From positions 2,914,001 to 2,978,000 of the forward strand of contig CP018627.1 in NCBI GenBank assembly GCA_002021875.1: a stretch of 64,000 bases of DNA, written 5' to 3'. A model generated the notes under the pieces. It did not search any database, was not told the origin of the DNA, and was given only the letters and a program-made list of their open reading frames with translations. Of the stretch, positions 3,463 through 29,863 are shown in pieces. Every line of letters begins with the position of its first letter. The first letter of the stretch is position 1. Made by a program: the position numbers and the translations under genes. The stretch is from Streptomyces hygroscopicus. GTDB taxonomy: Bacteria; Actinomycetota; Actinomycetes; Streptomycetales; Streptomycetaceae.

Positions 3463-4287
3463 CTATCGCGGCCGGACGCCGACGGCGATGAGGCTGCTGG
3501 CGTCGAGGTGGGAGTGGCCGGCGGCCGCCATGTCGGCGTGCAGCCGGTCCCGGACACGGCCGAGCTGTTGTTCGTCCATGCCGAGCACAAAGCGGCGGGG
3601 CGCGGCGCCGAGCAGGAACATCCAGGCGTCGTCGCCGAGCAGCGGGACGCGGTAGTCGACCCGGTGCACCGCGACGTCCACGAGGCCGAACGAGCGCAGC
3701 CAGGCGGCGAGCCCATCGGCCGAGTCCACTCGGGTGCGCGGGTCGGGGGCGGTCGGCGGTGCGGGCAGCGGGCGGACCGCGGAGGCGGCCTCGCGTGCGC
3801 GGCGGACCATGCTGTCCATCCCGCCGCCGACCCAGGTGCTGAGGGCTATCCGGCCGCCGGGGCGCAGCAGATCCACCAGGTGCCGGGTCCCGGCGTCCAT
3901 GTCGGGGAAGAAGAACACGCCGTAGCAGCACTGGACGAGGTCGTAGGGGGCGTCCGCGCGCCATGCGGTGACATCGCCGCGGTGGAACCGCAGATGGCCG
4001 AGCCCTTGCCGGTCCGCCTCGGCCCGGCCCTGGTCCAGCAGGGCGCCGGCCATGTCGACGGCGTCGACATGGCCGGCGGCACCAACGGCGCGGGCGGCGG
4101 GCAGGGCCGACGCGCCGGAGCCGCAGCAGGCGTCCAGGACCCGCTCCCCCGCGCGGGGCCGGGAGACGCCGGTGGCGAGCGCCCCCAGCGGCCCCCACAG
4201 CCGCGAATACCAGGAGGCGAACTCGCGGCGGGTCTGGCTGAACAGCGCGCCCACCGGGAGGGTGGGCACGGCGGATATCACGGTCAT
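3463..4287 (-). CDS. Class I SAM-dependent methyltransferase
   Basis: A UbiE/MenG-like methyltransferase of 274 residues. Motif I is VLDACCGSGASAL, motif II VDAVDMAG, then the acidic LRFHRGDVTAW, the post-II segment YDLVQCCYGVFFFPD and motif III LLRPGGRIALSTW. The substrate cannot be read from sequence. ATG 4287 is chosen over an upstream ATG because it overlaps the stop of the helix-hairpin-helix gene by ATGA. A C-terminal region with YRVPLLGDDAWMFLLGA may form the substrate lid. It is the last gene of the long minus-strand operon A, but its functional link to the biosynthetic cluster is uncertain because the gene just before it is a general one. Confidence 0.85.
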   Translation of the reverse strand: MTVISAVPTLPVGALFSQTRREFASWYSRLWGPLGALATGVSRPRAGERVLDACCGSGASALPAARAVGAAGHVDAVDMAGALLDQGRAEADRQGLGHLRFHRGDVTAWRADAPYDLVQCCYGVFFFPDMDAGTRHLVDLLRPGGRIALSTWVGGGMDSMVRRAREAASAVRPLPAPPTAPDPRTRVDSADGLAAWLRSFGLVDVAVHRVDYRVPLLGDDAWMFLLGAAPRRFVLGMDEQQLGRVRDRLHADMAAAGHSHLDASSLIAVGVRPR

Positions 4288-4541
4288 GGTGTCTTCGAGT
4301 CCTTCCAGTTCCACCAACGGAGCTTCTCCGGCTCCCTGCCGCCCTCGGCGTAGTAGACGGCGCACCGGAAGACGTAGAGCATGCAGCGGTCCACATAGGC
4401 CCCCTGTTCGAGCATCAGCCGGTCGTACAGTTCCTCGGGGTCCTGCCCGACGAGTTCCTCGACGCGGTGGATGCCCATGCCGTGCAGGTCGCCCTCGACG
4501 GCCTTGCCGACGCCGGGGATCTGCCTCAGGTCGCTCTCCAT
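4284..4541 (-). CDS. Helix-hairpin-helix (Cdd1-like) small protein
   Basis: An 85-residue protein. Residues 6-40 form a helix-hairpin-helix (IPGVGKAVEGDLHGMGI, then EELYDRL). The C-terminal half has the Cys/Tyr/Trp-rich block CMLYVFRCAVYYAEGG and LRWWNWKD, which together match the Cdd1 'pathogenicity locus' family of short HhH proteins found widely in bacteria. The family function is unknown; HhH motifs usually bind nucleic acid without sequence specificity. The start ATG 4541 has a GAGGAG ribosome binding site. It lies 11 bases after the exporter gene and overlaps the methyltransferase start by 4 bases, so it is co-translated with it. A role in the biosynthetic pathway is not evident. Confidence 0.8.
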   Translation of the reverse strand: MESDLRQIPGVGKAVEGDLHGMGIHRVEELVGQDPEELYDRLMLEQGAYVDRCMLYVFRCAVYYAEGGREPEKLRWWNWKDSKTP

Positions 4542-4552
4542 AGGGCTGCTCC

Positions 4553-6061
4553 TCACTCTCCCAACGCGCGGTCGCGCATCGCGAGCGACAGTACGAGAGC
4601 CAGCAGCAGAACGGGCACCGCGATGAAGAAGACGGTGCCCAGCGAGTCGGCGTACGCCTCGGTGAAGCCGTGCCGCAGGTCGCCGGGGAGCTTGTCGAGC
4701 GCGTCGGCGGTCAGGTTCGTCATGGACTGGGCGCTGTCCCCGGGCACGTGCCGGGGCAGTTCGGTGGCCAGCCGCGCCGAGAACACCGCGCCGAACGCCG
4801 AGATCCCGAAGGAGGGCCCGACCAGCCGCGCGTAGGTGACCGTCGCGGTCACCGCACCGATCTGGGCGGGCGGTGCGCAGCTCTGCACGGCCACCATGAA
4901 CACCTGCATCGACAGGCCGGAGCCGACGCCGAGCAGCACCGAGTAGGCCACCACGAGCGGCCAGGGCGTGTCCGCGTCCATGGTGGACAGCAGATACGAC
5001 GCGAGCGCCGCGACGGCCATGCTGGCCACCGGGAACCAGCGGTATTTCTTGGTCTCGGCGATCCGGCGGCCGACCAGGGTGGAGGCGACGAGCAGGCCGA
5101 ACATCATCGGGATCAGCAGCAGACCGGAGGTGACGGCCGACGCGCCCGAGGCGGCCTGCAGGAAGAGCGGCAGGAAGTTGACGGTGGCGAGGATCGCGAA
5201 CCCGGCCAGCATGGTGATCGTGTTCGACAGGACGAAGGTGGAGTTGCGGAACAGGGTGAGCGGGATCATCGGTTCGGCCGCGCGCCGCTCCACCACGATC
5301 CACGCGGGGATGAGCAGGACGATCGCGACGATCAGCGCGATACCGCGCGTGGACAGCACCGCGTCCAGGCTGCCGACGCGCCCCGCCAGCAGCGCCACGC
5401 AGACCGACAGGGCCGCCAGCAGCGCCGCACCCGGGTAGTCGATCTTCGGCCGGCCGCGGGTGGCGGCGGTCGGCAGCAGGAACGCCACCACGGCGAGGGT
5501 GACCAGGCCGAGCGGCAGATTGACGTAGAACACCCAGCGCCAGCCGATGGCGTCGGTGACGACGCCGCCGACGAGCGGGCCCGCGACGCTGGCGACGGCG
5601 AACACGCTGGTGGAGTACCCGGCGTACTTGGCGCGCTCGGCGGGCTCGAACAGCTGGCCGATGAGTGAGAAGGAGGCGACCACCAGCGCGCCGCCGCCAA
5701 TCCCCTGGATCACCCGGAAGGCGATCAACTGGCCCATGCTCCCGGCCAGTCCGCACAGCATCGACCCGGCGATGAACACCACGACGCCGCCGAGGTACAC
5801 CAGGCGGTGGCCGAACAGGTCGCCGAGCTTGCCGCCGACGATGGTGGTGATGCTGAGCGTGAGCCCGTACCCGGTGAAGACCCAGGCGAAGTGCTCGAGC
5901 CCGCCCACGTCGTGCACGACGCTCGGCAGCGCCGCGGCGACGACGGACTGGTCCAGGGTGGACAGCAGCATCCCGAGAAGGATGCCGCCGAAGACCCACA
6001 GCCGACGGCTGAGGCTTGGGGGGGCCGCCGCCGGGGCGGGCGCCGTCGTTTCAGCGGTCAC
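4553..6061 (-). CDS. DHA2-family MFS drug exporter (14 TM)
   Basis: A 502-residue major facilitator of the EmrB/QacA (DHA2) family, predicted to export the cluster product by proton antiport at the cytoplasmic membrane. Motifs include TLDQSVVAAALPSVVHDVG in TM1 (motif D1), GGKLGDLFGHR (motif A), FRVIQGIGGGALVVAS (motif B) and AGPLVGGVVTDAIGWRWVFYVNLPLG (motif C), which marks antiporters. About 14 hydrophobic segments fit the family. ATG 6061 overlaps the stop of the MtrA-like gene (ATGA), so it is translated with operon A. Its position makes it the likely self-resistance and secretion gene for the pathway. Confidence 0.92.
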   Translation of the reverse strand: MTAETTAPAPAAAPPSLSRRLWVFGGILLGMLLSTLDQSVVAAALPSVVHDVGGLEHFAWVFTGYGLTLSITTIVGGKLGDLFGHRLVYLGGVVVFIAGSMLCGLAGSMGQLIAFRVIQGIGGGALVVASFSLIGQLFEPAERAKYAGYSTSVFAVASVAGPLVGGVVTDAIGWRWVFYVNLPLGLVTLAVVAFLLPTAATRGRPKIDYPGAALLAALSVCVALLAGRVGSLDAVLSTRGIALIVAIVLLIPAWIVVERRAAEPMIPLTLFRNSTFVLSNTITMLAGFAILATVNFLPLFLQAASGASAVTSGLLLIPMMFGLLVASTLVGRRIAETKKYRWFPVASMAVAALASYLLSTMDADTPWPLVVAYSVLLGVGSGLSMQVFMVAVQSCAPPAQIGAVTATVTYARLVGPSFGISAFGAVFSARLATELPRHVPGDSAQSMTNLTADALDKLPGDLRHGFTEAYADSLGTVFFIAVPVLLLALVLSLAMRDRALGE

Positions 6062-6933
6062 AGGGCTACTCCCTTGGGGGGTTCGGCGGTCACCGGGCCG
6101 GCCCAGTGGAGGGAAGGGACCGGATCGGCGGACCGGGAGTCGAGCGGGCGGTCCTGGACGTAGGCGAGGCCCAGCCGCAGCGCGGTCTCGGCTTTGGCCA
6201 GTTCACCGCCCAGGTAGCCCGCGTGGGCGGGGTCGTCGGTGAGCCCGTGGGCGACCGCCGCGAGGGTGAGGGCGGTCGCGCTGCGGCTGCGCAGTTCGTG
6301 CCCGCTCGCCAGGTCCTCGCCGTAGTGCCGGAGCACGATCCGGCCGGCCGGGCGGTCGAGGGAGATGACGAAGCAGCCGGCTCCGGCCGAGGCGATCGGA
6401 CGGACCCGGCCGACCGCGGCCAGCGGCACCAACCGGGGCGTGCTGGCCGCCAGTTCCTCCCCCAGGACACCGGCCACACAGTCCGGGCCCTTCACATCGC
6501 CCGCCCCGTCCGCGTCGTCGGCGTGGCGGGGCAGGGCGTCGACGGCGGCCAGCACGGCGGCCGGGTCGTCCTGGCCGCGCAGGTCGTGGACGGCGATCCG
6601 GCGGCGGAAGGCGGCCACGACGGGCGGCCGCAGGTTGGGGAGATGGGCCCGGTGGCCGTGCGCGCCGATGATGGTGCCGTCCGGGGCGGTGCCGTGCGCG
6701 GCCAGCGCCAGCAGGCTCTGGCCGGGGTGAAACAGCCGGGAGTCGTGCCCGCACACCACCAGATGCCGGACCGCCGGGCGGGCGAGGGCGCCCCGGACGA
6801 GCTCCTCGATCCCCAGGTTGGCGGTGGCCAGCGGGGCCGCGACCGCCACCCGGGGATGTCCGGCCAGCCGCGCGGGCAGCGTGTGCGTGCGCAGCGTGCA
6901 GACCGCGACGTCGGCGGTCCGGTGGGTCACCAC
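6058..6933 (-). CDS. MtrA-like corrinoid protein with DUF4346-like C-terminal domain
   Basis: A 291-residue protein. Residues 25-125 resemble subunit A of methanogen tetrahydromethanopterin S-methyltransferase (MtrA): ATANLGIEELV, HLVVCG, FHPGQSLLALAAHG and TIIGAHGHRAHLPN match MtrA segments of the type TENLGIEKV, FLILCG, GHxTGQ, ALHEHG and NIIGATGAIPYI. In MtrA the His of GHxTGQ is the lower ligand of the cobamide; here His69 (or His63) sits at that place. Residues 170-270 (GCFVISLD, IVLRHYGEDL, HAGYLGGELAKAETAL, YVQDRPL) look like the DUF4346 domain that occurs beside pterin/methyl-transfer proteins in archaea. It overlaps the B12 radical SAM gene upstream by 7 bases and the exporter downstream by 4. 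Inference: a methyl-carrier or methyltransferase acting with that enzyme. The family call rests on remembered motifs only. Confidence 0.65.
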   Translation of the reverse strand: MVTHRTADVAVCTLRTHTLPARLAGHPRVAVAAPLATANLGIEELVRGALARPAVRHLVVCGHDSRLFHPGQSLLALAAHGTAPDGTIIGAHGHRAHLPNLRPPVVAAFRRRIAVHDLRGQDDPAAVLAAVDALPRHADDADGAGDVKGPDCVAGVLGEELAASTPRLVPLAAVGRVRPIASAGAGCFVISLDRPAGRIVLRHYGEDLASGHELRSRSATALTLAAVAHGLTDDPAHAGYLGGELAKAETALRLGLAYVQDRPLDSRSADPVPSLHWAGPVTAEPPKGVAL

Positions 6934-8756
6934 GTGGGGGCACCCCCGTTGTACGAGCGGGGCGCGCCGCCGGGGGTCACCGGCGGGAGGCTGGAGCTGA
7001 TGGCGGTGACGTCCGCGCCGAACCGGTGCAGCCGCATCCCGACGCGGAGCTGCTCGGCGCGGATGCGGTCGATGCAGGAGCGGAAACGGGCCTCGATCTG
7101 CTCCAGCTGGCGGCGGCGCTTGACCGGGTCCAGGCGGTCGGTCAGGACGTCGTCGAGGTTCTCCATGAAGAACTCGTGGTTCTGCCGCCCCATGTCCTGG
7201 CGGGTCTCGTGCAGGAAGTCCTTGAACCGCTCCAGGACCTCCATCGCCCCCGGAAGGGCGTGAAAGCGGCGGTAGAGCCGGGAGACGAAGGTCTGCACGA
7301 CGACGTTGAACGTCTCGAACTCGAACACCGCCGACTGGTCGGTGATGACGCCGCGCTTGTGGTAGTCCTCGTCGTTGTAGAGCGAGGCGAAGTGGACGGC
7401 GAGCCGCTCGACGCGCTCATCGCTGTGGCGGTAGTCGTAGGGATCGAGATTGTCCTCGTAGCGGTCGCCGAGCAGGCCGTCGTCCGCCAGCTTGCGGGCG
7501 ATGGACGTGCCCGGGTAGACCTCCAGCCGCTCGGTGAGACGGCGCAGGTTGTGCCCGGCGTGCTCGCGCAGGAAGTCGGCGTTCTGGGTCAGGGTCTCCA
7601 CCGTGGCGTAGGGGTGGAACGGAATGAACCCCATGGCCAGATAGATGCCGTGCTCGCGCAGCAGCCGGATGATGCTGATGTTGTCCTCGACGGTGGCGCG
7701 CTTCTCCCATAGCAGCAGCTCTTCGGGGACGCCGGATTCGATGCCGACGTTGACCTTCTCCAGGCCGCTGCGGACGAGCAGGTCGAGCAGGTCGTGGTCC
7801 TCGGCGGAGTCGGACCAGTTCTCGGCGCGCATGCAGACGTTGTAGTAGATGTCGAGACCGCGGTCGAGGATGCCCTCGGCGATGGCGCGGACACGTTTTT
7901 TGCCGACCCGGCCGCCGTCGGGGTCCTCGAAGGTGGAGTCGATGAAGTCGAAGGTGCGGAACCGGTGGTCGCGGACGAGCTGCTCCACCTCGTCCAGTAC
8001 GTAGTCGGGGCCGACCCCGCGCCACGCCTTGCCCGCCTGGACGCGGTTGCCGAGGTTGGGGGCCGAGCAGAAGGTGCAGCGGGCGACGCAGCCGCGGCTG
8101 GTGCTGACCCGGACGTATTCGAGCTTGTTGCCGTGGGCGATGAGCTGATCGCGGACCGGGTACGGCAGCACCTCCAGGTTGTGGACGAGCGGGCGGGCCG
8201 GGTTCTGCCGGTATCCGCCGTCGGCGTCGCGGTATCCGATGCCGGGGCAGCCGGCGATGTCCTCGCCGAGGGCGAGCCGCTGGGCGAGGTCCAGGATGAT
8301 GGGCTCGCCCTCGCCGACCGCGACGATGTCGGCGTGCGGGTTGACCCGCAGCACATCGGTGCCGGTGAACGTCCCGGCGGGGCCGCCGCAGGCGATGACC
8401 ACCTCGGGCATCTCCTTGCGCAGGGCCGCGCAGAACTCCACGCAGCTCGGCACGTTCAGGCTCATCAGCGTGAAGCACACCAGGCCGGGGGCGTAGGCCG
8501 CGATGGCGTCCACGACCTCCTGGTGGCGGCCGTGCTCGGCCTCGCGGATCTCGCAGGAGAAGCCCGCCGCGCGCAGCGTCGCGGCCATATAGGCGACGCC
8601 GAGGTGCTCGGGGGACATCACCAGGTCGCCGTCGAGCAGGATCACGAAGCTGACCCGGAACGCGGCCGGGTCGGTGATCCTCGCGTCGAGCGCTATCTCG
8701 AAGTGTCCCGGCTTCTCCCGGGGTGCGAGCCCGAGCTCTTTCCCAGACGTCACCAT
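6927..8756 (-). CDS. B12-binding domain radical SAM enzyme (class B-like)
   Basis: A 609-residue protein. Residues 40-165 form a cobalamin-binding Rossmann domain (LGVAYMAATLRAAGF, LVCFTLMSLNVPS, VVIACGGPAGTF, IVAVGEGE) without the DxHxxG base-off His, as usual in this class. The radical SAM core carries CVARCTFC (Cys223, 227, 230) for the [4Fe-4S] cluster; GIESG and later barrel strands follow. The C-terminal 170 residues are helical and unassigned. Such enzymes methylate unreactive carbon or phosphorus, or rearrange carbon skeletons, using SAM and cobalamin. The start ATG 8756 has GAGGAGG upstream and overlaps the AP1 stop by 7 bases. The MtrA-like protein follows directly, hinting at shared corrinoid methyl chemistry. 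Confidence 0.9.
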   Translation of the reverse strand: MVTSGKELGLAPREKPGHFEIALDARITDPAAFRVSFVILLDGDLVMSPEHLGVAYMAATLRAAGFSCEIREAEHGRHQEVVDAIAAYAPGLVCFTLMSLNVPSCVEFCAALRKEMPEVVIACGGPAGTFTGTDVLRVNPHADIVAVGEGEPIILDLAQRLALGEDIAGCPGIGYRDADGGYRQNPARPLVHNLEVLPYPVRDQLIAHGNKLEYVRVSTSRGCVARCTFCSAPNLGNRVQAGKAWRGVGPDYVLDEVEQLVRDHRFRTFDFIDSTFEDPDGGRVGKKRVRAIAEGILDRGLDIYYNVCMRAENWSDSAEDHDLLDLLVRSGLEKVNVGIESGVPEELLLWEKRATVEDNISIIRLLREHGIYLAMGFIPFHPYATVETLTQNADFLREHAGHNLRRLTERLEVYPGTSIARKLADDGLLGDRYEDNLDPYDYRHSDERVERLAVHFASLYNDEDYHKRGVITDQSAVFEFETFNVVVQTFVSRLYRRFHALPGAMEVLERFKDFLHETRQDMGRQNHEFFMENLDDVLTDRLDPVKRRRQLEQIEARFRSCIDRIRAEQLRVGMRLHRFGADVTAISSSLPPVTPGGAPRSYNGGAPTW

Positions 8757-10093
8757 CGGATGTCCTCCTCGTTCCCAGGCCGCATGACCCGCACGTCGGT
8801 GCCCTCGGTTCCGGGTGGCGGGTCGATGCCCAGGGAGGCCAGGACGGTCGGCGCCACGTCTCGCATGTGCAGGGGGTCGGTGCCCTGGTCGCCCCGGCAC
8901 CAGAAGGTGGCGTCCGGGCGGGTGTGGGTGCCGGTCAGCGGGGCGTCCCCGGTGATCTGGTCGGTGGCCCACGCGCCCCGGATCTGTACGCCGGGGGCGG
9001 GCATCACGACCAGGTCGGGGGCGTCGTCCGCGTACGGCCCGGCGTAGGTCTTCGGCCCGGAGAGCACCTCGGAGACGACGGGGGTGCCGGGGCCGCCCTC
9101 GGCGATCCGGCCGTCCTCGGTGAGCCGCAGGGCGAGCAGCCGCGCGGTGAGTTCGCCGGGGTCGGTGTGGGGTCCGCCGCGGGGGAAGCGGTCGGCGGTG
9201 TTGAGGTAGATACGGCCGGGGTCGAGCGCGAACGCCCGGGTGCGCTCGTCGATCTCCTCCAGGGTCCCGGCGCCGGGCGGCAGCGCGAGATACCCGGCCC
9301 GCCGCAGCCAGGCGTTCAGATAGAACTGCGTATGCGCCGGGCCGAAGCCGTGGTCGCTGGCGAGGAACAGCGCGCCGTCCCCGGCGCGGTCGGCCAGCTC
9401 CGCCACGGCCTCGTCGACCCTTCGGTAGAAGTCGAGGACGCGCCCGTGGAGCCGGGCGGCGGGGTCGGTGAGCGAACTCCACAGGAAGTGGTGGACGCGG
9501 TCGGTTTCGGTGATGACGCACACCGCCAGGTCCCAGCCGCCGGACAGGACGTGGGCGAAGGCGGCGCGGCGGGCGGCGAGGGCGGCCTCCGCCCGGTCCA
9601 GGAACCCGTCCGGGTCGGCGGCCACCTCGCCGACCTCGACATCGAGCTGGTAGCCCAGGGCGCGCAGCGGCCCGCGCAGCTCGGGCGGGTACACGGCCCG
9701 GTCGAAGTCGGGGGCCACGAAGCCGGACACCAGCGTGCCGCGCAGCGGCGGCGCGGGGTAGGTGCTCGGCACGTTCATGATCACGCTGCGGCCGCCGTCG
9801 CGGTCGACCGCCTCCCACAGCGGCGGGGCCTTCAGGTCGCCGTAGCCCGGGAAGTACGTGCGGTAGGTGCCGGGCCGCAGGTCCACGAAGCCGTAGATGC
9901 CGTGGGTGCCCGGGTCGGTCCCGGTCAGGAAGCTGGCCCAGGACGTGGAGCTGATCTCCGGGACGGGCGCGCTCATCGCGCGCAGGCTCCCCTGCGGAAG
10001 CAGGCCCGCGGTCTTCGGCATGACGCCCTGGTCGGCCAGGTCGCGCAGCAGCCAGTACGGGACGCCGTCCAGCCCGATCACCATCGCGCTCAT
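8750..10093 (-). CDS. Alkaline-phosphatase-superfamily hydrolase (type I phosphodiesterase-like), AP1
   Basis: A 447-residue protein of the nucleotide pyrophosphatase/phosphodiesterase branch of the alkaline phosphatase superfamily. Two-metal site residues are in place: Asp9 (GLDGV), nucleophile-region Ser48 in EISSTSWASFLTG, Asp199 and His203 (ETDRVHHF), Asp248-His249 (ASDHGFGP), and a late His in GTHTRPD. HGIYGFVD follows the nucleophile as in family members. It probably hydrolyses or transfers a phosphate, phosphodiester or sulfate ester in the cytoplasm; there is no signal peptide. ATG 10093 overlaps the CysN-like stop (ATGA). It is one of three paralogues in this operon and, by its intact site, should be active. 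Confidence 0.85.
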   Translation of the reverse strand: MSAMVIGLDGVPYWLLRDLADQGVMPKTAGLLPQGSLRAMSAPVPEISSTSWASFLTGTDPGTHGIYGFVDLRPGTYRTYFPGYGDLKAPPLWEAVDRDGGRSVIMNVPSTYPAPPLRGTLVSGFVAPDFDRAVYPPELRGPLRALGYQLDVEVGEVAADPDGFLDRAEAALAARRAAFAHVLSGGWDLAVCVITETDRVHHFLWSSLTDPAARLHGRVLDFYRRVDEAVAELADRAGDGALFLASDHGFGPAHTQFYLNAWLRRAGYLALPPGAGTLEEIDERTRAFALDPGRIYLNTADRFPRGGPHTDPGELTARLLALRLTEDGRIAEGGPGTPVVSEVLSGPKTYAGPYADDAPDLVVMPAPGVQIRGAWATDQITGDAPLTGTHTRPDATFWCRGDQGTDPLHMRDVAPTVLASLGIDPPPGTEGTDVRVMRPGNEEDIRW

Positions 10094-11355: not shown

Positions 11356-11365
11356 TGATGCCGCC

Positions 11366-18477: not shown

Positions 18478-18506
18478 ACGGTATGCAGCTTGACAACTAA
18501 AGTCAA
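18478..18506 (-). promoter_or_regulatory. Predicted promoter of operon A with overlapping operator
   Basis: Read on the minus strand, TTGACT (18506-18501) is followed after 17 bases by TACCGT (18483-18478), a good sigma-70/HrdB-type match. The start codon lies 33 bases further on. The -35 box is inside a 17-base inverted repeat, TTGAC-7-GTCAA (18490-18506), which is shared in part with the promoter region at 27517-27535. A protein bound there would control access to the -35 element. Confidence 0.6.
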
Positions 18507-18544
18507 ACATCCTCATTGACTTTGGTCATCACGCTCGCAATCAT
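18490..18544 (+). promoter_or_regulatory. Divergent promoter region of operon B with two operator-like sites
   Basis: The inverted repeat at 18490-18506 (TTGAC...GTCAA) and a second copy of its half (TTGACTTTGGTCATC, 18516-18530) lie between the divergent operons. On the plus strand TTGACT (18516-18521) with 17 bases to AATCAT (18539-18544) could be a promoter; it would start transcription almost at ATG 18552, giving a leaderless mRNA. Which box is used is inference. The repeats match the element in front of operon C. Confidence 0.5.
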
Positions 18545-18551
18545 CGAGGTC

Positions 18552-22323: not shown

Positions 22324-23540
22324 CGCGTCACCACGGCGTCGGTGGCCCGCGCGGCCAGGGCGGCGACCACGGTGGCCACGCGCTCCACCACCGGTGGTTC
22401 GGCCAGCAGCACCCGGTGGTGGATCCACAGGCCGTGGGCGCCCAGGTCCTCCGCCACCGCGCACCGCTCGGCCAGCTCCGGTACGGGCGTCGTGGGCACC
22501 GGGCCCGCCTGGAAGGACGCGGTGCGGTAGACGGGCGGGAAGTTGACGCACGCCGGGACGCCCGCCGCCTTCAGCCCCTCCACCAGCGCGTCGCGCCCCG
22601 CCCGGCCCGCCGACGGGTCGACGGCCACCAGGTACATGTAGTGCGGGTTGACGTCCATCCGCGGGTCGCGGGCCTGCAGGCGCAGCCCGGGCACGTCCGC
22701 CAGCAGCGCGTCGAGCAGGGCGGCACGCTGCTCCCGGATCCGCGTCTGCCCGGCCAGGCGGGCGAGTTGGGCGCGCAGGATCGCCGCCGTGAACTCGCTG
22801 ACGCGGTAGTTGGAGCCGCCCGTCATGTGCTGGTAGGTGGTGTCGCCGCGGGGCCGCCCGCAGGTGTGCATCAGGTACGCCTGCTCGTACGTCTTCTCGT
22901 CGGGCAGGGTCAGCGCCCCGCCCTCCCCGGCGGTCATCAGCTTGCCGTTCTGGAAGCTGTAGCAGGCGACCGTGGGGAACGCGCCGACCGGCGTCCCGTC
23001 CCACACCCCGCCCTGGGCGTGCGCGGCGTCCTGGATGAGCGCCAGGCCGTGTTCGGCGGCCAGGTCCCCCAGCCCGTGCATATCGGCGAGATGACCGGCC
23101 ATATGGACGGGGATGACCGCGCGGGCCTCCGGGGTCAGCGCGGCACGGACGGCTTCGGGTGTCAGGCAGTAGGTTTCGGGGTCCACGTCCGCCGGGACGG
23201 GGATCGCGCCGACGTTCTGTACGGCCAGCGAGGTGCTGATGAAGGTGAACGCGGGCACCACGACCTCGTCGCCGGGCCCGATGCCATGCAGCCGGAGCGC
23301 CAGTTCGAGCGCGGCGGTGCCGTTGGTCACCGCGAGCGCGCGCGGCGCGCCGTTGTACGCGGCGAACTCGCGCTCGAAGTCCTCGTTCTCGGTGCCCGCC
23401 GCCCGCCACCACTGTCCCTGCGCCAGGACACGGTCCAGGGCCGCGCGCTCCGTATGGTCGTGCTGGGGCCACGGCGGCAGGTCGTCGGCGTCGATCCGGC
23501 GGACGGGGGCCGGGGGCGCGGCTGTCGGGTCGAGGGTCAC
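22320..23540 (-). CDS. DegT/DnrJ/EryC1 PLP-dependent aminotransferase
   Basis: A 406-residue fold-type I aminotransferase. PLP contacts are NGTAALELAL, PAFTFISTSLAV, QDAAHAQG (Asp171) and the Schiff-base Lys200 in SFQNGKLMTAGEGG. The family aminates keto sugars (NDP-4-keto or 3-keto), scyllo-inosose or AHBA precursors. PAFTFISTS and QNGKLMTAGEGG resemble the cyclitol/AHBA branch somewhat more than NDP-sugar enzymes, but this is a visual judgement. The start is GTG 23540. It works most simply on the ketone made by the Gfo/Idh enzyme encoded just downstream. Operon C member, 36 bases after the SDR gene. Confidence 0.9.
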   Translation of the reverse strand: MTLDPTAAPPAPVRRIDADDLPPWPQHDHTERAALDRVLAQGQWWRAAGTENEDFEREFAAYNGAPRALAVTNGTAALELALRLHGIGPGDEVVVPAFTFISTSLAVQNVGAIPVPADVDPETYCLTPEAVRAALTPEARAVIPVHMAGHLADMHGLGDLAAEHGLALIQDAAHAQGGVWDGTPVGAFPTVACYSFQNGKLMTAGEGGALTLPDEKTYEQAYLMHTCGRPRGDTTYQHMTGGSNYRVSEFTAAILRAQLARLAGQTRIREQRAALLDALLADVPGLRLQARDPRMDVNPHYMYLVAVDPSAGRAGRDALVEGLKAAGVPACVNFPPVYRTASFQAGPVPTTPVPELAERCAVAEDLGAHGLWIHHRVLLAEPPVVERVATVVAALAARATDAVVTR

Positions 23541-23576: not shown

Positions 23577-24293
23577 TCACCATCGCGCGGCTCCGTCCAC
23601 CAGCAGCGTCTGCCCGGTGATGTAGCCGGAGCGCGGCCCGGCCAGGAAGGCCACCGCGTCGGCGACCTCCTCCGGCGTGGCGAGGCGGCGCAGCGCGATG
23701 CGCTCGGTGACGGCGTGGTTCTCCTCCTCCGTGTAGAGCGAGGAGCCGGGGCCGGGCTGGACGGCGCCGGGCGCCACGACGTTGACGGTGACGCCGAAGC
23801 GGCCGAAGTCCCAGGCGGCCGACGCCGCCCACGCCGACAGCGCGGCCTTGGTGGCCGCGTACTCGGCCTGGCCGGGCATCCCGACGCTTCCGGCGCGGGA
23901 TCCGACCAGCACGATCCGGCCGCCCCGCTGCCGGAGCATCCCCTTGCCGACGAGCCCGGCCAGCCGGGTCACCGAGTGGACGTTGAGGTCCCACAGGCCG
24001 TCGTCGCCGCCGGGGGTCAGGACGGAGCGCCGCAGCGTCCTGCCGTGGGCGCACACCAGGACGCCGGGCACGACCCCGCGCTCCCTGATCCGGCCCATCG
24101 CGGCGGCCGGGTCGGTCAGGTCGGCCCGGACGGGTTCGAGCGCGCCGATCTTCGCGGCGAGCTCGGCCGCCCGGTCCATGCCCTGGTGGCATACGGGCAG
24201 GACGGTCATGCCCGCGTCGGCGAGGGCGTGGCAGATCGCGGCACCGAGCAGGCCGCTCGCGCCGGTCACCAGCGCCACGGGCGAATCGGTCAC
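23577..24293 (-). CDS. Short-chain dehydrogenase/reductase
   Basis: A 238-residue classical SDR. The cofactor motif is ALVTGASGLLGAAI (TGxxxGxG variant), VLVCAHG replaces NNAG, the catalytic triad is Ser in VLVGSRAGS, Tyr and Lys in YAATKAAL, and the C-terminus has GYITGQTLLVDGA as in FabG-like proteins. Substrate may be an acyl-ACP ketone made by the fused ketosynthase, since no other ketoreductase is linked, or a sugar/cyclitol ketone. GTG 24293 overlaps the stop of the adenylation-methyltransferase gene by GTGA. Operon C member. Confidence 0.88.
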   Translation of the reverse strand: MTDSPVALVTGASGLLGAAICHALADAGMTVLPVCHQGMDRAAELAAKIGALEPVRADLTDPAAAMGRIRERGVVPGVLVCAHGRTLRRSVLTPGGDDGLWDLNVHSVTRLAGLVGKGMLRQRGGRIVLVGSRAGSVGMPGQAEYAATKAALSAWAASAAWDFGRFGVTVNVVAPGAVQPGPGSSLYTEEENHAVTERIALRRLATPEEVADAVAFLAGPRSGYITGQTLLVDGAARW

Positions 24294-26377
24294 GGCCGCT
24301 CCCGGGCGGCGAGCAGCAGTGTGCAGGCGGGGCGGCCGAGGTGCAGGGTCCGCTGGACGGTCAGCCCGGCGGCGGCCAGCCCGGCGGTCGCCGCCGTCTC
24401 GGTGGGCCAGGCGGTACCGCCGTGGGTGAGCCAGTCCAGCCGGGTCTCCGGCGGAACGCCCTCGGGCGCGTCCAGGAACACGTCGTCCACCAGCAGCCGC
24501 CCGCCGGGGGCCAGCCGCTCGGCCACGGCACGCAGGTCGGCCGCCGGACCGTGGATCGCGTTGGCGAGCACCACCAGGTCGAAGACCCCGTCGGGGAGCG
24601 GTCCGCGCCCGGCGTAGGTGCCCTCGCCGGCGACATGGCGGTAGACACCGGGCCCGGCGGAGACCTCCAGGAGTCTTTGGCCTACGGCGAAGCGGGCCAG
24701 CGCCAGGCCGCTGCGGGCACGGCGGTGCGCGGCCTCGCCGTGCAGGGCCGTCTCGTAGACCTCGCGCAGCCGCTCGGAGGGCCCCTCGCGGTCGAACGGG
24801 CGCCGCGCGGCCCCGGACCGGACGACCTCCGCCAGGGCCTCGCGGGTCACCCACGATCGCGACAGCTCCGCCTCCAGCGCGACCAGCGCCGTATCCGCGC
24901 CCCCGGTCCCCTCACCGGCGGTGGCGACGAGGTCCTCGGGGCGCAGCAGCCCGGCATCCTCGGCGGCGCGCAGCAACTCGGCGCAGGCCGCCTCGTCCAG
25001 GCCCAGCCGCGCCGCCAGTTCCGGCGCGGTGCTCGCTCCTTCGCCGAGCGCCTCGACGATGCCGAGGTCCACCAGAGTGAAGAGCAGCTCACTGCGCTTG
25101 TAGGCGGTGGCGGCGGCGACCAGGGCGTCCCGGCCCGCCAGGGCGAGCGCACGCGGCGGAAGGGGTTTGCCGACCCGGCCGCGCGGCACCTCGCCGACGC
25201 ACCGGACACGGTCGGGGACCTTCTGGGGGCCGAGCAGCGCCTTCGCGTGCTCGCCGAGGCCGGAGACGTCCGCGCCCGGTCCGCGCACATGCACCACCTC
25301 GGCCTGAAGCGCGACCGAGGTGCCGTGCCGGACGGGGTAGACGCGGGCGTCGGCGATGTCGGGGTGGCGGCACAGCGCGGCCTCGATCTCCTCCGGCGCG
25401 ATCCACCGGTCCCCGCGCCGGATGGCACGCGTGCGGCGGCCCAGCAGCCGGAGCCCGGCGGCGGGGTCGTAGGAGGCCAGATCGCCCATGGGGTGCCACG
25501 CCCCGCCGTCCACCCGCACCAGCAACTCGCCCTGCGCACCGGGCCGCATATCGGCGCCGTCCGGGGCGACGACGCGGAATTCCACGCCGTCCAGCGGGAA
25601 CCCGACGCTGCCGGGCGGGCTGCCGGGCACGCCGCTGAACAGCCCCCCGGTCTCGGTGGAGCCGTAGTTGCGCGCCAGGCCGATCCCGAACGCGGCGGTG
25701 AACCGCTCCTCGAGCGCCGCGTCGACCGGCCCCGCGCCGACCATGGCCAGGCGCAGCGCGTTGTCCGGCACCGCTCGGCCGGTGCGCTGCGCGAGCAGGC
25801 GCGCGACGGTCGGGACGAGGGCGAGCACGGTCGCCCCGGCGGCGATGTGCTCCGCGCAGCGGCCGAGCGCATTCGGCGGGACCGCGGCGATCGTGCACTC
25901 GGCCTCGAACGCGGCGTGCGCCCAGCCGAGCGCGTAGGCGTGCCACAGGTGCAGCGGCACCAGCAGCGTGTCATCCGCGCCCAGGCCCGCGTACCGCGCG
26001 TGCCGGCGCCCCTCCGCGCGCAGGGATTCCGGCGAGCGCGGGACCAGCTTGGGCGCGCCGGTGGTTCCCGAGCTGGGCAGCAGTACGGTGCCCGGCGGGT
26101 GGCCCGAGGGCGCGGGGGCGCCGGTGACCGTGACGCGGTCGCCGTCCACGGCCACGAGGCGTCCGCCCCCGGCCGCGTCCAGGAGTCTGCGGTGCTCGGC
26201 GGGCGGCGCGTCGCGGTCGAGAAGCAGCACCACGGCCCCGGCGTCGGTCAGCGTCCGGTAGGCCGCGAGCCATGGGCCACCGTTCGCTCCGGCGAGCGCG
26301 ACGGTCGTCGCGGGCTCGATGCCGTCGAGCCCGTCGAGACCGTCGAGACCGCCCGCGGTGATCGCCAGGTCAGCCAC
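24290..26377 (-). CDS. AMP-dependent acyl ligase fused to a SAM methyltransferase
   Basis: A 695-residue two-domain protein. Residues 1-415 are an adenylate-forming ligase: LLPSSGTTGAPKLVPRS (P-loop), NYGSTETGG, MGDLASYD and the C-terminal GKPLPPRAL Lys. The N-terminal lobe is short, about 100 residues less than usual. Residues 425-695 are a plant-OMT-like methyltransferase with dimerisation helices (KRSELLFTLVDLGIVEALGEG, ELAARLGLDEAA), a shortened SAM site (LLEVSAGPGVYRHV), FDLVVLANAIHG and LAPGGRLLVDDVF. No carrier domain is fused, so the acid may be loaded on the separate ACP or CoA. GTG 26377 overlaps the radical SAM stop. This domain combination is unusual and not a frame error; the linker is in frame with uniform codon use. 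Confidence 0.83.
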   Translation of the reverse strand: MADLAITAGGLDGLDGLDGIEPATTVALAGANGGPWLAAYRTLTDAGAVVLLLDRDAPPAEHRRLLDAAGGGRLVAVDGDRVTVTGAPAPSGHPPGTVLLPSSGTTGAPKLVPRSPESLRAEGRRHARYAGLGADDTLLVPLHLWHAYALGWAHAAFEAECTIAAVPPNALGRCAEHIAAGATVLALVPTVARLLAQRTGRAVPDNALRLAMVGAGPVDAALEERFTAAFGIGLARNYGSTETGGLFSGVPGSPPGSVGFPLDGVEFRVVAPDGADMRPGAQGELLVRVDGGAWHPMGDLASYDPAAGLRLLGRRTRAIRRGDRWIAPEEIEAALCRHPDIADARVYPVRHGTSVALQAEVVHVRGPGADVSGLGEHAKALLGPQKVPDRVRCVGEVPRGRVGKPLPPRALALAGRDALVAAATAYKRSELLFTLVDLGIVEALGEGASTAPELAARLGLDEAACAELLRAAEDAGLLRPEDLVATAGEGTGGADTALVALEAELSRSWVTREALAEVVRSGAARRPFDREGPSERLREVYETALHGEAAHRRARSGLALARFAVGQRLLEVSAGPGVYRHVAGEGTYAGRGPLPDGVFDLVVLANAIHGPAADLRAVAERLAPGGRLLVDDVFLDAPEGVPPETRLDWLTHGGTAWPTETAATAGLAAAGLTVQRTLHLGRPACTLLLAARERP

Positions 26378-27485
26378 CGCAGCTCACCCCGTCGCGCCCC
26401 TCCTTGTAGAGGCGCTTGCGCTCGGCGATCAACTCCCGGATCACCGGCGGGGCGTAGGTGGGGGCCTGGCACAGCTCGTCGAGGGTGATCTCGTCCTCGA
26501 AGTACATCGACAGCGTGTCCCAGGGCGTGAAGCAGCCCTTGCACGCGTTGAGACGGGGCCGTTCGGCCAGCAGCGCGGTGTACAGGCCGGTCTCGCCGAC
26601 CCGCCGCAGCGACTCGGCGTGGTCGTCCTCCAGCAGGTTGCCCATATTGGAGAACCAGATGTTCGGGCACGGGGTCACCATGCCGTCGCTGAAGGTCGAG
26701 ATGACCAGGCGCGGCAGATGGCAGCGGAAGGTCCGCTCGCCCTCCCGCAGGAACGACAGCAGCCGGTCGAAGTAGGGGCGGGGCGGCAGCACCGCCGCCA
26801 GCTCGTCGTAGCGGTCGACCAGCTCCTCGATGTGGACGATCTGGTCCGGCCGCATCGCGAACCGCTCGGAGTCGGGGCCCCGCACCGGGAACGGGAAGAA
26901 GGTCGGCGGGCGCTCCCGGTCCGCGAGCCAGCGGGCGAACGCCGGCGCCTCGGGGGCGCTGCGGTCGTTCAGCACGCCGTAGATCTCCACCGGCAGGCCG
27001 CTGTCGAGGATCGTCTCGATCCGGCGCAGCACCTTGCCGTGCAGCGATTCGGTCTGCACCCGGTGTGAGTTGCCGGAGAACAGGTGGCTGTCCAGCGACA
27101 CTTGAAGCACGACGTTCTTCCAGCCGCGCAGTTCCTCGAGGTGCTCCTCACGGACCAGCACCCCATTGGTCTGGACGATCAGCACCTCGTGCTGAGCGGC
27201 CTGCTCGCGCAGATAGTCCATGATCCCGGCGACCAGGAAGATCTCCCCGCCGGTGACCTTGAGCATCGGCGCGCGGAACGTGTCGTCGATGCGCCCGGCG
27301 ATGAGCGGGAGGCGGCGCCCGAGGAGGCTGCCCTCGGCGTAGCGGTCCCGGGTCGGCGGCCCGAATATGAGCTGTGCGTGGTGCGACTGCTTGAGGTTGC
27401 TCTGGCCGGTGAGGCAGTACGTGCAGCTGAGATTGCACGAGTCCTCATTGATGACCAGGTCGTTTCCGAGGAGTGTGTCGATCAC
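26370..27485 (-). CDS. Radical SAM enzyme with SPASM-like C-terminal cysteines
   Basis: A 371-residue radical SAM protein. The cluster motif is CNLSCTYC (Cys17, 21, 24) right at the N-terminus, then KVTGGEIFLV (GGE motif) and VLIVQTNGVLV. Later cysteines occur in FRCHLPR, TPCPN and NACKGCFTPWD, the spacing pattern of SPASM/Twitch auxiliary clusters that are used for dehydrogenation or crosslinking chemistry. Substrate cannot be predicted; there is no precursor peptide gene in view. The start GTG 27485 is chosen for its GGAAGGAC ribosome binding site and because it puts the Cys motif at the usual distance. It is the first gene of operon C, with the operator 32 bases upstream. Confidence 0.85.
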   Translation of the reverse strand: MIDTLLGNDLVINEDSCNLSCTYCLTGQSNLKQSHHAQLIFGPPTRDRYAEGSLLGRRLPLIAGRIDDTFRAPMLKVTGGEIFLVAGIMDYLREQAAQHEVLIVQTNGVLVREEHLEELRGWKNVVLQVSLDSHLFSGNSHRVQTESLHGKVLRRIETILDSGLPVEIYGVLNDRSAPEAPAFARWLADRERPPTFFPFPVRGPDSERFAMRPDQIVHIEELVDRYDELAAVLPPRPYFDRLLSFLREGERTFRCHLPRLVISTFSDGMVTPCPNIWFSNMGNLLEDDHAESLRRVGETGLYTALLAERPRLNACKGCFTPWDTLSMYFEDEITLDELCQAPTYAPPVIRELIAERKRLYKEGRDGVSCGG

Positions 27486-27514
27486 GGCGCGTCCTTCCGG
27501 CAGTGGACGCCCAA

Positions 27515-27544
27515 ACGTTAACTTTAGTTGGTGACTATCGTCAA
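27515..27544 (-). promoter_or_regulatory. Predicted promoter of operon C with shared operator motif
   Basis: On the minus strand TTGACG (27544-27539) and TAACGT (27520-27515) are 18 bases apart and 29 bases upstream of GTG 27485. The spacer holds GTTAACTTTAGTTGGTGAC (27517-27535, plus-strand reading), whose core TTnACTTTAGTTG matches the inverted repeat in the operon A/B promoter region at 12 of 13 positions. The site is also upstream of the XRE regulator gene, as expected for a cluster-specific regulator that may also act on itself. Confidence 0.6.
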
Positions 27545-27581
27545 TACGCCGAACTGCCTCCATCACCTGCAGGTCAAAGGA

Positions 27582-27609
27582 TGGTCAGGGGGCGAGTTCC
27601 CGGCTACAA
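27582..27609 (+). promoter_or_regulatory. Predicted promoter of the XRE regulator
   Basis: TGGTCA (27582-27587), 16 bases, then TACAAT (27604-27609), an excellent -10 box in a GC-rich genome. The ATG at 27621 follows 11 bases after the -10 box, so the transcript would be leaderless or nearly so, which is common in Streptomyces. No Shine-Dalgarno sequence is present in front of this ATG. Confidence 0.6.
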
Positions 27610-27620
27610 TAGTCACAGCC

Positions 27621-28877
27621 ATGAGAGCCGAACACAGTCAGCAGCCAGAGTTCGGTCAGCGTGTCCGGCGGCGACGCGAGGAGTTGGGCTTCTCCCAACG
27701 CCGACTCGCTGGCGACATCGTGACCGCCAGCTATATCTCCCTCCTGGAGTCCGGTCAGCGCTCCCCCACACTCGACCTCGTACTCCACCTCTCCGAGGTG
27801 CTCCAGATGCCGCTGGAGGAGCTGACCGGCCGCGGCGGGTCTTCCGCCGCGGCCGCCGAGCCCGGCGGCCTCGACCTGGTCATCGCGCGCTCCGCCGCAC
27901 GCGGCGCCGCCGAGCTGGGGGACCACGCCCGCGCGGCCGAGCTGCTCGCGACCGCCTACACCACCGCGGTCGAGCACGGCACGACCGCCCTCCAGTTCGA
28001 CCTCGGTCTGGCGCTGCAGGAGGAGCTGCGGTCGGCCGGGCGGCAGCCCGACCGGCTGGCGCTGCTGGAGCGCCTCGCCGATCAGGAGTGGGCCAAGACC
28101 GATCCGCATCTGCGCGTCGTCCTGTTCACCGAGCTGGCCACCGCGCAGCGCGACACCGGGCGGCTGACGGACGCGCGCAAGTCGGCCTATACGGCGCTGG
28201 GCGAGATCGGCCCGGCCAAGCTCACCGGCGCGTTCGAGCATGTCCGGCTGCTCGGCATCCTGATCTCGGTGCTCTGCGAGCTCAACGACCTCGGCCAGGT
28301 CGAGCTGCTGCTCAAGGAGATGCTCTCGCTCGCCGAGGGCCACCGGCCGCCCGTGCGCGGCCGGGCCCACTGGGTCTCCAGCATCGCGTACTCCCAGCTC
28401 GGCATGGCCACCGCCGCGCGCCACCATCTGGACCTGGCCCGCGCCCAGCTCACCACGCCCGACACTCCGGTGCGCGACTGGCTGCGGTTCATGCGGTCGG
28501 CCGGCAATGTCCTGCTGGACGACGGCGACCCCGGCGCGGCGCTGCCGTGGCTGCAGGCCGCCGAGCAGGTCGGCCCCATGGTCAACGCCCCCGACGAGAC
28601 CACCCGGATCGTCGCGCTGCGCGCCCGCTATGAACTGGCCGTGGGCGCCGCCGCCCAGGTCGTCGAGGTCTACCCCCGGCTCAGTGCGGGCTCCGCGCCG
28701 CTGACCGGGCCCGATCTGGTCCGCGCCAACCTCATCCAGGCCGAGGCGCTGGCCGACTTGGGCCGCACCGAGGAGGCCCAGGCGTTGCTGCGCCGGACCG
28801 CGGCCCTCTGCGACGAACTGACCGCCTATGAACTGGCCGTCCGCGTCTGGAAGCGCATCGACACGCTTCGCTCATGA
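27621..28877 (+). CDS. XRE-family transcriptional regulator with TPR-like domain
   Basis: A 418-residue regulator. Residues 8-65 are a Cro/CI-type helix-turn-helix (FGQRVRRRREELGFSQRRLAG, ASYISLLESGQRSPTLDLVLHLSEVL). The remaining 340 residues are helical repeats rich in Ala, Leu and Glu with TPR-like periodicity. In streptomycetes such proteins often act as cluster-situated regulators. The gene lies between the operon C promoter and the dehydratase gene, and its neighbourhood contains a motif shared with the operon A/B promoters, so it is the best candidate to bind that motif; whether it activates or represses is unknown. Start ATG 27621 is supported by the adjacent -10 box. The stop overlaps the next start (ATGA). 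Confidence 0.87.
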   Translation: MRAEHSQQPEFGQRVRRRREELGFSQRRLAGDIVTASYISLLESGQRSPTLDLVLHLSEVLQMPLEELTGRGGSSAAAAEPGGLDLVIARSAARGAAELGDHARAAELLATAYTTAVEHGTTALQFDLGLALQEELRSAGRQPDRLALLERLADQEWAKTDPHLRVVLFTELATAQRDTGRLTDARKSAYTALGEIGPAKLTGAFEHVRLLGILISVLCELNDLGQVELLLKEMLSLAEGHRPPVRGRAHWVSSIAYSQLGMATAARHHLDLARAQLTTPDTPVRDWLRFMRSAGNVLLDDGDPGAALPWLQAAEQVGPMVNAPDETTRIVALRARYELAVGAAAQVVEVYPRLSAGSAPLTGPDLVRANLIQAEALADLGRTEEAQALLRRTAALCDELTAYELAVRVWKRIDTLRS

Positions 28878-29863
28878 GGATCTTCGTCACCGGTGGCGCC
28901 GGCTTCATCGGTTCCCAGTTCGTGCGGGCCCTGCTCGCGGGCGAGCCGGCAGTCTCCGAGGGTGCCTCGGTGACCGTGTTCGACAAGCTCACCTACTCGG
29001 GCAACCTCGCCAATCTCGCCCCCGTGGCCGGCCACCCCGGCTACTCCTTCGTCCAGGGCGACATCTGCGACGCCGAGGCCGTCGACCGGGCCATGGCCGG
29101 TCACGACGCGGTGGTGCACTTCGCCGCCGAGACCCATGTGGATCGCTCCATCCTGCGCTCGGCTCCGTTCGTCACCACCAATGTGCTGGGCACCCATGTC
29201 CTCCTGGACGCGGCGCGCACGCACCGGGTGAGCCGGTTCCTGCACGTGTCCACGGACGAGGTGTACGGCTCCATCACCGAGGGATCCTGGACCGAGGACT
29301 GTCCGCCGGCCCCCAACTCGCCCTACTCCGCCTCCAAGGCCGGTTCGGATCTGCTGGCCCTGTCCTACCACCGCACCCACGGCCTGGACGTGGTGGTCAC
29401 CCGCTGCTCCAACAACTACGGCTGGTATCACTTCCCGGAGAAGATGATCCCGCTGTTCGTCACCCACCTGATGGACGGCAGGAAGGTCCCGCTGTAGGGG
29501 GACGGCTCCCACGTCCGCGACTGGCTGCATGTGTCCGACCACTGCCGCGGCATCGCCCTGGCGCCGGGCCAGGGCCAGGCGGGCGAGGTCTACCACATAG
29601 GCGGCGGCACCGAGGTGTCCAACAAGGAGCTCACCAGCATGCTCCTCGAGGCCACCGGGCAGGGCTGGGACATGGTCGAGCACGTCGAGGACCGCAAGGG
29701 CCACGACCTGCGCCACTCCCTGGACATCAGCAAGATCCGCAAGGAACTGGGCTACGAGCCGCGGATCTCTTTCGCGGACGGTCTGGCCGCGACGGTGCGG
29801 TGGTACGAGGACAACCGCACCTGGTGGGAACCGCTGAAGAAGAAGGCCACCTTGATGCGCTGA
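28874..29863 (+). pseudogene. rmlB: NDP-glucose 4,6-dehydratase (RmlB-like), interrupted by an in-frame TAG
   Basis: The same frame runs for 329 codons and encodes a full RmlB-type extended SDR: FVTGGAGFIGSQF, the sequence HFAAETHVDRS, STDEVYG, and YSASKAGSD (catalytic Tyr/Lys), then DWLHVSDHCRGI and the C-terminal HDLRHSLDISKIRKELGY. Codon 208 is TAG (29495-29497) in VPL-stop-GDGSHVRDW, where the family has Tyr (VPLYGDG), so a single base change explains it. The truncated 207-residue product lacks part of the substrate domain. Either it is a recent pseudogene, a sequencing error, or it is read through. No rmlA, rmlC or rmlD is nearby. The ATGA overlap with the regulator shows that it was translated with it. 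Confidence 0.85.

Follow-up and report, generated by a model that had tools for sequence, protein, structure and literature searches.

A probable mitomycin-family biosynthetic gene cluster in Streptomyces hygroscopicus, from a clade beside the mitomycin clusters

The 64,000-nucleotide stretch of Streptomyces hygroscopicus DNA analysed here (the window) corresponds to C1:2,914,001-2,978,000 of a single-contig 12.0-Mb genome (G000) and contains a biosynthetic gene cluster. Codon-usage gene calling placed 25 genes, g6 to g30, across positions 3463-29863; the gene starts are those of a simple caller, and a split RmlB gene is counted as two (g29 and g30). Operon A runs from g18 to g6 on the minus strand. 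It is followed by a divergent plus-strand block (g19-g21), a minus-strand block running from g27 to g22, and g28-g30 on the plus strand. An earlier note on this DNA had described a biosynthetic cluster joined by 4-base overlaps. Both points are borne out, as exact overlaps are found at 8 of the 24 junctions among g6-g30, and every gene family that it named was recovered by gene calling with Pfam and NCBIfam searches. The note had also held that no known pathway matches this combination, which is contradicted by the comparisons below. They make it highly probable that the locus is a mitomycin-family biosynthetic gene cluster, in a clade beside the mitomycin clusters.

The divergent block encodes a HAD phosphatase (18522-19235), a type II dehydroquinase (AroQ, DHquinase_II; PF01220; 19228-19656) and a PIG-L deacetylase (PF02585; 19656-20318). 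The minus-strand block from g27 to g22 encodes a radical SAM enzyme (26370-27485), a fusion of an adenylation domain with a methyltransferase-like domain (24290-26377), a short-chain dehydrogenase/reductase (SDR; 23577-24293), a DegT protein (22320-23540), a Gfo/Idh oxidoreductase (PF01408; 21271-22323) and a GT2 glycosyltransferase (PF00535; 20294-21274). The DegT protein scores 404 bits against the 3-amino-5-hydroxybenzoate (AHBA) synthase structure 1b9h, compared to 217 bits for the next different enzyme, and is thus assigned as an AHBA synthase. For the HAD protein, the best NCBIfam match is TIGR01454 (AHBA_synth_RP, 'AHBA synthesis associated protein'), with 168.7 bits for a cut-off of 246.65. 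Taken together, AroQ, Gfo/Idh, HAD and DegT fit the roles of RifJ, RifL, RifM and RifK in the aminoshikimate pathway, as set out in the accessible part of PMC8788734.

The radical SAM enzyme of g27 shares 72% identity over 97% with a UniRef cluster (built at 90% identity) that is named for MitD of S. lavendulae. The designation 'SPASM-type' in the earlier note is not upheld for it, since there is no Pfam SPASM domain, and NCBIfam yields only weak, below-cut-off matches to SPASM and twitch families. A search of solved structures returned SkfB alone, with an E-value of 0.041. In mitomycin biosynthesis, according to genetic and biochemical work covered in the available text of PMC8621148, MitE activates AHBA, the acyl carrier protein (ACP) MmcB carries it, and MitB adds N-acetylglucosamine (GlcNAc). 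The same text describes MitF as a FabG-like reductase that binds MmcB, and in its introduction puts MitD forward for C-C bond catalysis. MitC is described as deacetylating the intermediate before MitF and MitD act (PMC9570651, in the part available). The window holds a candidate for each of these early roles: the adenylation fusion for MitE, an ACP of operon A for MmcB, GT2 for MitB, PIG-L for MitC, the SDR for MitF and g27 for MitD. Mit names are used here on the basis of family and role, and only MitD and MmcR were compared directly as named mitomycin proteins.

Operon A starts with AP3 (16903-18414), one of three proteins of the alkaline phosphatase (AP) superfamily (PF01663). Downstream follow the ACP (PF00550; 16471-16737), a ketosynthase-chain length factor (KS-CLF) fusion in one open reading frame (14158-16455), AP2 (12785-14161), g14 (12147-12788), and CysD-like (11366-12172) and CysN-like (10090-11355) subunits of sulfate adenylyltransferase, the latter being the GTPase. 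AP1 (8750-10093), a B12-binding radical SAM enzyme (6927-8756) and an MtrA-like protein with a PterinBD-DUF4346 region (6058-6933) come next, and the operon ends with a major facilitator superfamily (MFS) exporter (PF07690; 4553-6061), a Cdd1 helix-hairpin-helix protein (PF11731; 4284-4541) and the UbiE-type methyltransferase g6 (3463-4314). The earlier note had considered that operon A could be a housekeeping block of streptomycetes. It is not, as the MtrA-like gene is present in only 9 of 392 genomes of the genus, including this one.

A scan of the species-genome collection with an alignment of 32 MtrA-like sequences identified 78 loci, the first 30 of which were compared with the window genes. 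Fourteen of the 78 were gene-called; in these, Pfam was run on one representative per extra gene family, and BLAST clustering served to assign the rest. In 13 of the 30 compared loci, the B12 radical SAM gene adjoins the MtrA-like gene. One of them is from S. klenkii (L014+L098+L099), where an O-methyltransferase matches MmcR with 600 bits, compared to 227 for the next entry. The S. klenkii cluster also has a PF02543 carbamoyltransferase, a berberine bridge enzyme-like (BBE) oxidoreductase, and an adenylylsulfate (APS) kinase beside CysD/CysN. Because of this content it was typed as a mitomycin-type cluster, and the mitomycin C cluster of S. lavendulae NRRL 2564 was compared through it.

When the 25 cluster genes were compared with 54 genes predicted in the S. 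klenkii cluster (its three loci share about 1 kb at their ends, so that a few genes are partly duplicated), 19 had reciprocal best hits, compared to 2 of the 36 other window genes. The shared set comprises AHBA synthase (58%), the RifL-, RifM- and RifJ-like genes Gfo/Idh (38%), HAD (45%) and AroQ (61.6%), the adenylation protein (46% over 91%, to a 762-residue S. klenkii protein), ACP (62.5%), the GlcNAc transferase candidate GT2 (48.5%), PIG-L (38%), SDR (42%), the MitD homologue (72.6%), the B12 radical SAM enzyme (66.5%), the MtrA-like protein, the three AP proteins (51% for AP2), CysD (38.5%) and CysN (41% over 60%). Two of the 19 matches are weak, the MFS exporter (33%) and g6 (30% over 38%). 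The two matches outside are the neighbouring YjbR-family gene (44%) and the aldehyde dehydrogenase g40 (37%). Operon A, which the earlier note had been unable to match, is thus for the most part mitomycin-type core. KS-CLF, g14, Cdd1, an HTH-TPR protein and RmlB have no counterparts in the S. klenkii cluster. The window also differs from S. klenkii in that its MtrA-like protein has no fused ACP, and in that it carries the remnant of a deoxysugar branch.

A tree of MitD homologues places the window outside the clade of the mitomycin clusters. Its 33 rows (the window, six rows from the loci, and 26 of 120 listed homologues, out of 240 found) were hand-picked for named or diverse origin. The window protein groups with rows from A. 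orientalis, Micromonospora, Actinomadura, Dactylosporangium, S. canus and S. californicus in a clade of 16 rows (support 99/96), while MitD of S. lavendulae and of S. klenkii are in the neighbouring 13-row clade (83/96). The tree does not settle how deep the split is, as it is midpoint-rooted, has two long-branched rows, and leaves the fork that joins both clades with one long row open.

Clusters of the window type are present in other genomes. A collinear block corresponding to g4-g30 is conserved (84-100%) in the close relative G393. In Streptomyces sp. NRRL S-350 (G001; L002+L095+L096), the stretches ACP-methyltransferase and AP3-HTH-TPR are arranged as in the window, at 75-94% and with KS-CLF included. 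This cluster adds ROK-family, shikimate-dehydrogenase-like, dehydroquinate (DHQ) synthase and deoxysugar genes, and has no RmlB beside the regulator. The blocks of the window recur in unchanged order, at 41-77%, in S. californicus (G002; L003+L097), which has g14 and CysD/CysN and no KS-CLF. There, the regulator is followed by a methyltransferase, RmlB, an RmlA-like gene, a second DegT gene and an EryCIII-like glycosyltransferase, and a nonribosomal peptide synthetase-like gene is found on the other side. The window, L001, L002 and L003 all contain g14 and a distinct CysN/CysD pair.

Several observations weigh against placing the locus in the mitomycin family. The S. klenkii cluster that serves as the reference was itself typed by homology only. 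Identity to it is low at some steps (PIG-L, Gfo/Idh, CysD, MFS and g6), and HAD and CysN score below their family cut-offs (208 bits for a cut-off of 336 in the case of CysN). One of the two outside matches, g40 (39846-41237), is located in a 12-kb stretch that is absent from G393. Pfam searches of the block found no aminoDHQ synthase, aminoDAHP (amino-3-deoxy-D-arabino-heptulosonate 7-phosphate) synthase or kanosamine kinase, and neither an APS kinase nor a sulfotransferase was recognised there, which leaves a gap in the sulfate leaving-group scheme proposed below. In 8 of 8 mitomycin-type genomes searched (via L004, L006, L008, L014, L016, L018, L019 and L026), a PF02543 carbamoyltransferase (MmcS) is encoded on the same contig at most 40 kb from the cluster; none is found near the cluster in G000, NRRL S-350 or S. 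californicus. Likewise, all 8 have a PF00891 hit (the MmcR O-methyltransferase family) of at least 135 bits near the cluster, compared to only weak PF00891 hits (30.7-50.6 bits) near it in these three. No counterparts of PhyH, luciferase-like or P450 genes occur in the window block. Finally, RmlB and a glycosyltransferase are broken, which amounts to partial pathway decay in this strain.

PhyH, luciferase-like and aldehyde dehydrogenase genes are present in all 10 gene-called mitomycin-type loci, which were typed by gene content and of which L004, L006, L008 and L014 are also rows of the tree, and in none of L001-L003 and L095-L097. The aldehyde dehydrogenase family is also present in L024. 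When ten representatives of the extra genes of mitomycin-type loci were run against the left flank L102 and every window gene, g40 was the sole match, and a BBE counterpart is missing from the window block as well. With the carbamoyltransferase, MmcR, PhyH, luciferase-like and P450 genes missing, mitomycin itself is an unlikely end product, and the cluster probably makes a relative of mitomycin that is not yet described. We did not find this exact gene set described in the open-access literature (most subscription papers lie outside its coverage), and the accessible part of PMC10525797 mentions no mitomycin-type cluster.

The missing late genes could also be read as a sign of the wholly new amino-sugar or aminocyclitol pathway of the earlier note, one in which mitomycin-like genes would have been recruited for a different scaffold. 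The genes without S. klenkii counterparts would fit this view. It appears very improbable, as the cluster has candidates for every early mitomycin step that has been studied biochemically, alongside the unexplained core genes. Equally improbable is a pactamycin-type pathway, in which 3-aminobenzoate, derived from 3-dehydroshikimate, would be loaded onto an ACP, extended by a ketosynthase, joined to GlcNAc, deacetylated and rearranged to an aminocyclopentitol. Its gene set is alike (ketosynthase, ACP, glycosyltransferase, PIG-L, radical SAM, B12 radical SAM, DegT and adenylation genes), the block has no aminoDHQ synthase, and S. californicus has a single DHQ synthase above the family cut-off. 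However, the number of reciprocal best hits to a mitomycin-type cluster, and the similarity of the radical SAM enzyme to the MitD group and its position beside the MitD clade, speak against this interpretation. So does the presence of DHQ synthase, ROK-family and shikimate-dehydrogenase-like genes nearby in NRRL S-350, as expected of an AHBA cassette.

The assignment to the mitomycin family suggests a route to the product. In view of the AHBA synthase, the MitD identity and the 19 of 25 compared to 2 of 36 reciprocal best hits, the early part (AHBA formation, ACP loading, GlcNAc transfer, deacetylation and MitF/MitD chemistry) is very probably that of mitomycin. AHBA would arise by kanosamine-type (Gfo/Idh, DegT, HAD) and aminoshikimate (AroQ, DegT) chemistry, with aminoDHQ and aminoDAHP synthases coming from elsewhere in the genome. 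Outside the cluster, the genome has two more AHBA synthase genes (53-54%), each with a DHQ synthase gene at most about 3 kb away, and one of them adjoins a DAHP synthase gene. The match to one of these AHBA synthase genes, L093 (G000:C1:9359760-9360902), contains a single TGA within the matched frame. The adenylation protein would then place AHBA on the ACP, GT2 would attach GlcNAc, PIG-L would deacetylate it, and the MitF-like SDR and the MitD homologue would perform the next steps on the sugar. The B12 radical SAM, MtrA-like and AP proteins may act on later bound intermediates, CysD/CysN would activate sulfate, most likely as a leaving group for aziridine formation, and KS-CLF would probably add a malonyl unit to the acyl group on the ACP. 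The MFS pump would export the product. While homology, conserved gene neighbourhoods and a shared motif are observed, each reaction is inferred for this organism, and those of the B12 radical SAM/MtrA-like/AP set, CysD/CysN and KS-CLF are the least certain. As the earlier note had suggested, the product very likely consists of an amino sugar and an acyl part linked together; the 'aminocyclitol' and 'methylated on carbon' of that note find no specific support.

In the KS-CLF fusion, the ketosynthase half keeps C159, H292 and H329, and the second half has no corresponding cysteine and reads LISGPAAG, as in type II KS-CLF pairs. Among the gene-called loci, the fusion is found only in NRRL S-350, and it is also present in G393. 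In the window and in L002 it separates ACP from AP2, which are directly adjacent in L003. A gain by insertion in the line of the window is therefore the simpler reading, the alternative being a loss in the line of L003. Among the gene-called loci, g14 occurs only in L001, L002 and L003, and again also in G393. It has no Pfam or NCBIfam match, and a structure model from four sequences (mean pLDDT 54) was too weak for use; it may resemble a dual OB-fold protein.

In AP1, the seven residues expected of the AP-superfamily metal site (D9, T50, D198, H202, D247, H248 and H390) are invariant in 8 of 8 aligned sequences, and the site appears intact. AP2 retains only part of the metal-site residues, and its SDH motif reads SEI. 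The best PDB match of AP1 is phosphonoacetate hydrolase, with 27 bits, too weak for its reaction to be deduced from sequence. The MtrA-like protein has the MtrA fold (5l8x; 36% identity, E-value 2.8e-9, root mean square deviation 1.2 over 130 columns). The histidine of the MtrA GHI stretch, which we take to be the cobalt-ligating residue of archaeal MtrA (tetrahydromethanopterin S-methyltransferase), aligns with a nearly invariant phenylalanine, F68. Relatives in S. klenkii and others carry a fused C-terminal ACP domain, which suggests carrier-bound substrates for the MtrA-like protein. Nearest to the B12 radical SAM enzyme are the BchE (NCBIfam, 115 bits for a cut-off of 481) and OxsB (58 bits) types, and it is not clearly a methylase.

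CysD scores 326.5 bits in NF003587, above the cut-off of 195. Among the best 120 of 524 CysN homologues there is a small actinobacterial set, and a class-wide search at an E-value of 1e-78 found CysN in this genome only (1 of 394). The earlier note had thought the product possibly sulfated. Sulfate activation is indeed present, but the S. klenkii cluster has it too, and a sulfated end product is thus not implied. In azinomycin biosynthesis, a hydroxyl group is sulfated and the neighbouring amine then displaces the sulfate to form the aziridine (PMC9570651, accessible part). CysD/CysN and the phosphodiesterase-type proteins had also raised the possibility of a sulfamate nucleoside such as ascamycin or nucleocidin, whose clusters, like the window, combine sulfate activation, sulfatase-type and radical SAM genes (PMC4257720, in the part available). 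This was rejected, as the gene sets given in the accessible parts of PMC4257720 and PMC10946740 are without AHBA, ACP and MitD genes; the table in the former also lacks the glycosyltransferase, and has alanyl-tRNA synthetase-like and amidinotransferase genes instead. A bolder version of the scheme assumes a family next to the mitomycins, not yet described, where the ACP-bound AHBA-glucosamine unit would not be converted to the mitomycin quinone and carbamate but receive a malonyl unit through KS-CLF. The outcome would be a mitosane-polyketide hybrid, its aziridine would form when sulfate from the dedicated CysD/CysN pair is displaced, and the MtrA-like protein, its cobalt-ligating histidine lost, would be a pterin- and ACP-linked partner of the B12 radical SAM enzyme. 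We consider this combination doubtful.

The blocks of the cluster share a promoter motif, as the earlier note had correctly observed. Operator-like copies are located in the divergent promoters of AP3/HAD (18490-18505, plus strand) and MitD/regulator (27519-27528, minus strand). ACTAAAGTNA occurs twice in the window, compared to a mean of 0.00 in 100 shuffles, and CAACTAAAGTYAA has exactly 2 copies in the 12.0-Mb genome, both in these promoters. G393 and NRRL S-350 have the core ACTAAAGT at these two promoters as well; S. californicus has one exact ACTAAAGT copy, at the MitD/regulator promoter only. Further operator-like copies are present at deoxysugar-side promoters (L088:4308, L002:17520 and 20371, and L102:18253, the last upstream of the X13 gene described below), which suggests a single regulon over the whole cluster. 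The motif would co-regulate the blocks, and the likely pathway regulator is the HTH-TPR protein (27720-28877, plus strand; TPR_MalT and HTH_3 matches below their cut-offs), whose gene adjoins the MitD gene in L095 and L097 too.

The regulator gene is followed by RmlB, a dTDP-glucose 4,6-dehydratase gene (28874-29863, plus strand) that is split by an in-frame TAG at 29495-29497; the G393 copy reads through. At the other end of the cluster, an EryCIII-like glycosyltransferase gene (PF06722; 741-1529, minus strand) retains only its last 261 residues, which are 79% identical to residues 132-392 of L002:17673-18854 in NRRL S-350. The DNA matches that of the relative only up to 1530, and an 856-bp stretch of other sequence (1531-2386) replaces the 5' part and 1534 bp of G393 (blastn of window positions 1-3500 against L088). 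One frame of this stretch presumably resembles the start of an IS605-type TnpB. Deoxysugar cassettes are richer in S. californicus and NRRL S-350 than in the window. Together with the broken remnants, they indicate that the ancestral product was probably glycosylated, and the deoxysugar branch seems to have been lost in this strain. The two lesions could also mean that the whole cluster is decaying and yields no active product. This is unlikely, as the broken genes belong to the deoxysugar branch, while g6-g28 are open and 90-100% conserved in G393.

The interval from 3463 to 29863 proposed in the earlier note is too tight at its left edge. The YjbR-family gene (PF04237; 3078-3425, minus strand), window positions 1-3046 and about 5 kb beyond are linked to the cluster, and we presume that this family is the one also called MmcQ/YjbR. 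A TylF/Methyltransf_24-like methyltransferase gene (2384-3046, plus strand) is 97% identical in G393, and the family also adjoins the NRRL S-350 cluster (L002:14791-15564). X13 (1-704, plus strand) is the C-terminal part of a 447-residue protein that starts left of the window and was detected by homology; the copies in L001 and G393 have no Pfam match, and a 380-residue part in the left flank L102 is 95.5% identical to L001:11401-12744 and 82% to L002:18921-20267. TylF-like, glycosyltransferase, X13, aminotransferase, methyltransferase and RmlA-like genes extend to about C1:2,908,700. The whole locus thus covers about G000:C1:2,908,700-2,943,860, i.e. window positions 1-29863 and about 5 kb leftward. 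On the right, 29,877-41,883 was excluded from the cluster: this 12-kb stretch is missing at the matching place in G393, where about 65 bp stand instead. It holds cation efflux, solute-binding, aldehyde-dehydrogenase-like and other genes. No tRNA was found in the window.

Outside the actinobacterial clusters, MtrA-DUF4346 homologues occur in Proteobacteria, Chloroflexi and others without other cluster genes (L005, L007, L009-L013, L015, L017, L021-L024 and L027), the exceptions being a weak partial match to the adenylation gene in L023 and the aldehyde dehydrogenase of L024. MitD homologues with 57-60% identity are present in Burkholderia ubonensis and in Pseudomonas, including P. protegens (P0278, P0283 and P0285). 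Related pathways may exist in these Gram-negative bacteria.

Mitomycin C is in use as an anticancer drug. Its biosynthetic pathway was called still not well elucidated in a 2022 review (PMC9570651, accessible part). The core chemistry predicted here is already known from mitomycin, and what appears new is that a cluster of this family belongs to a separate clade and contains an additional ketosynthase. In the clusters of the window, NRRL S-350 and S. californicus, the genes for AHBA-glucosamine, for sulfate activation and for the B12 radical SAM/MtrA-like/AP set are retained, and those for the carbamate and for O-methylation are missing. This content allows the shared core to be told apart from the mitomycin-specific late genes. 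It indicates which of the unexplained genes build the scaffold, and offers the sulfate leaving group as a testable hint for the origin of the aziridine. Amycolatopsis, Micromonospora, Actinomadura and Dactylosporangium are also represented in the clade, by MitD only, so that a family of possible new DNA-active compounds may exist in these genera.

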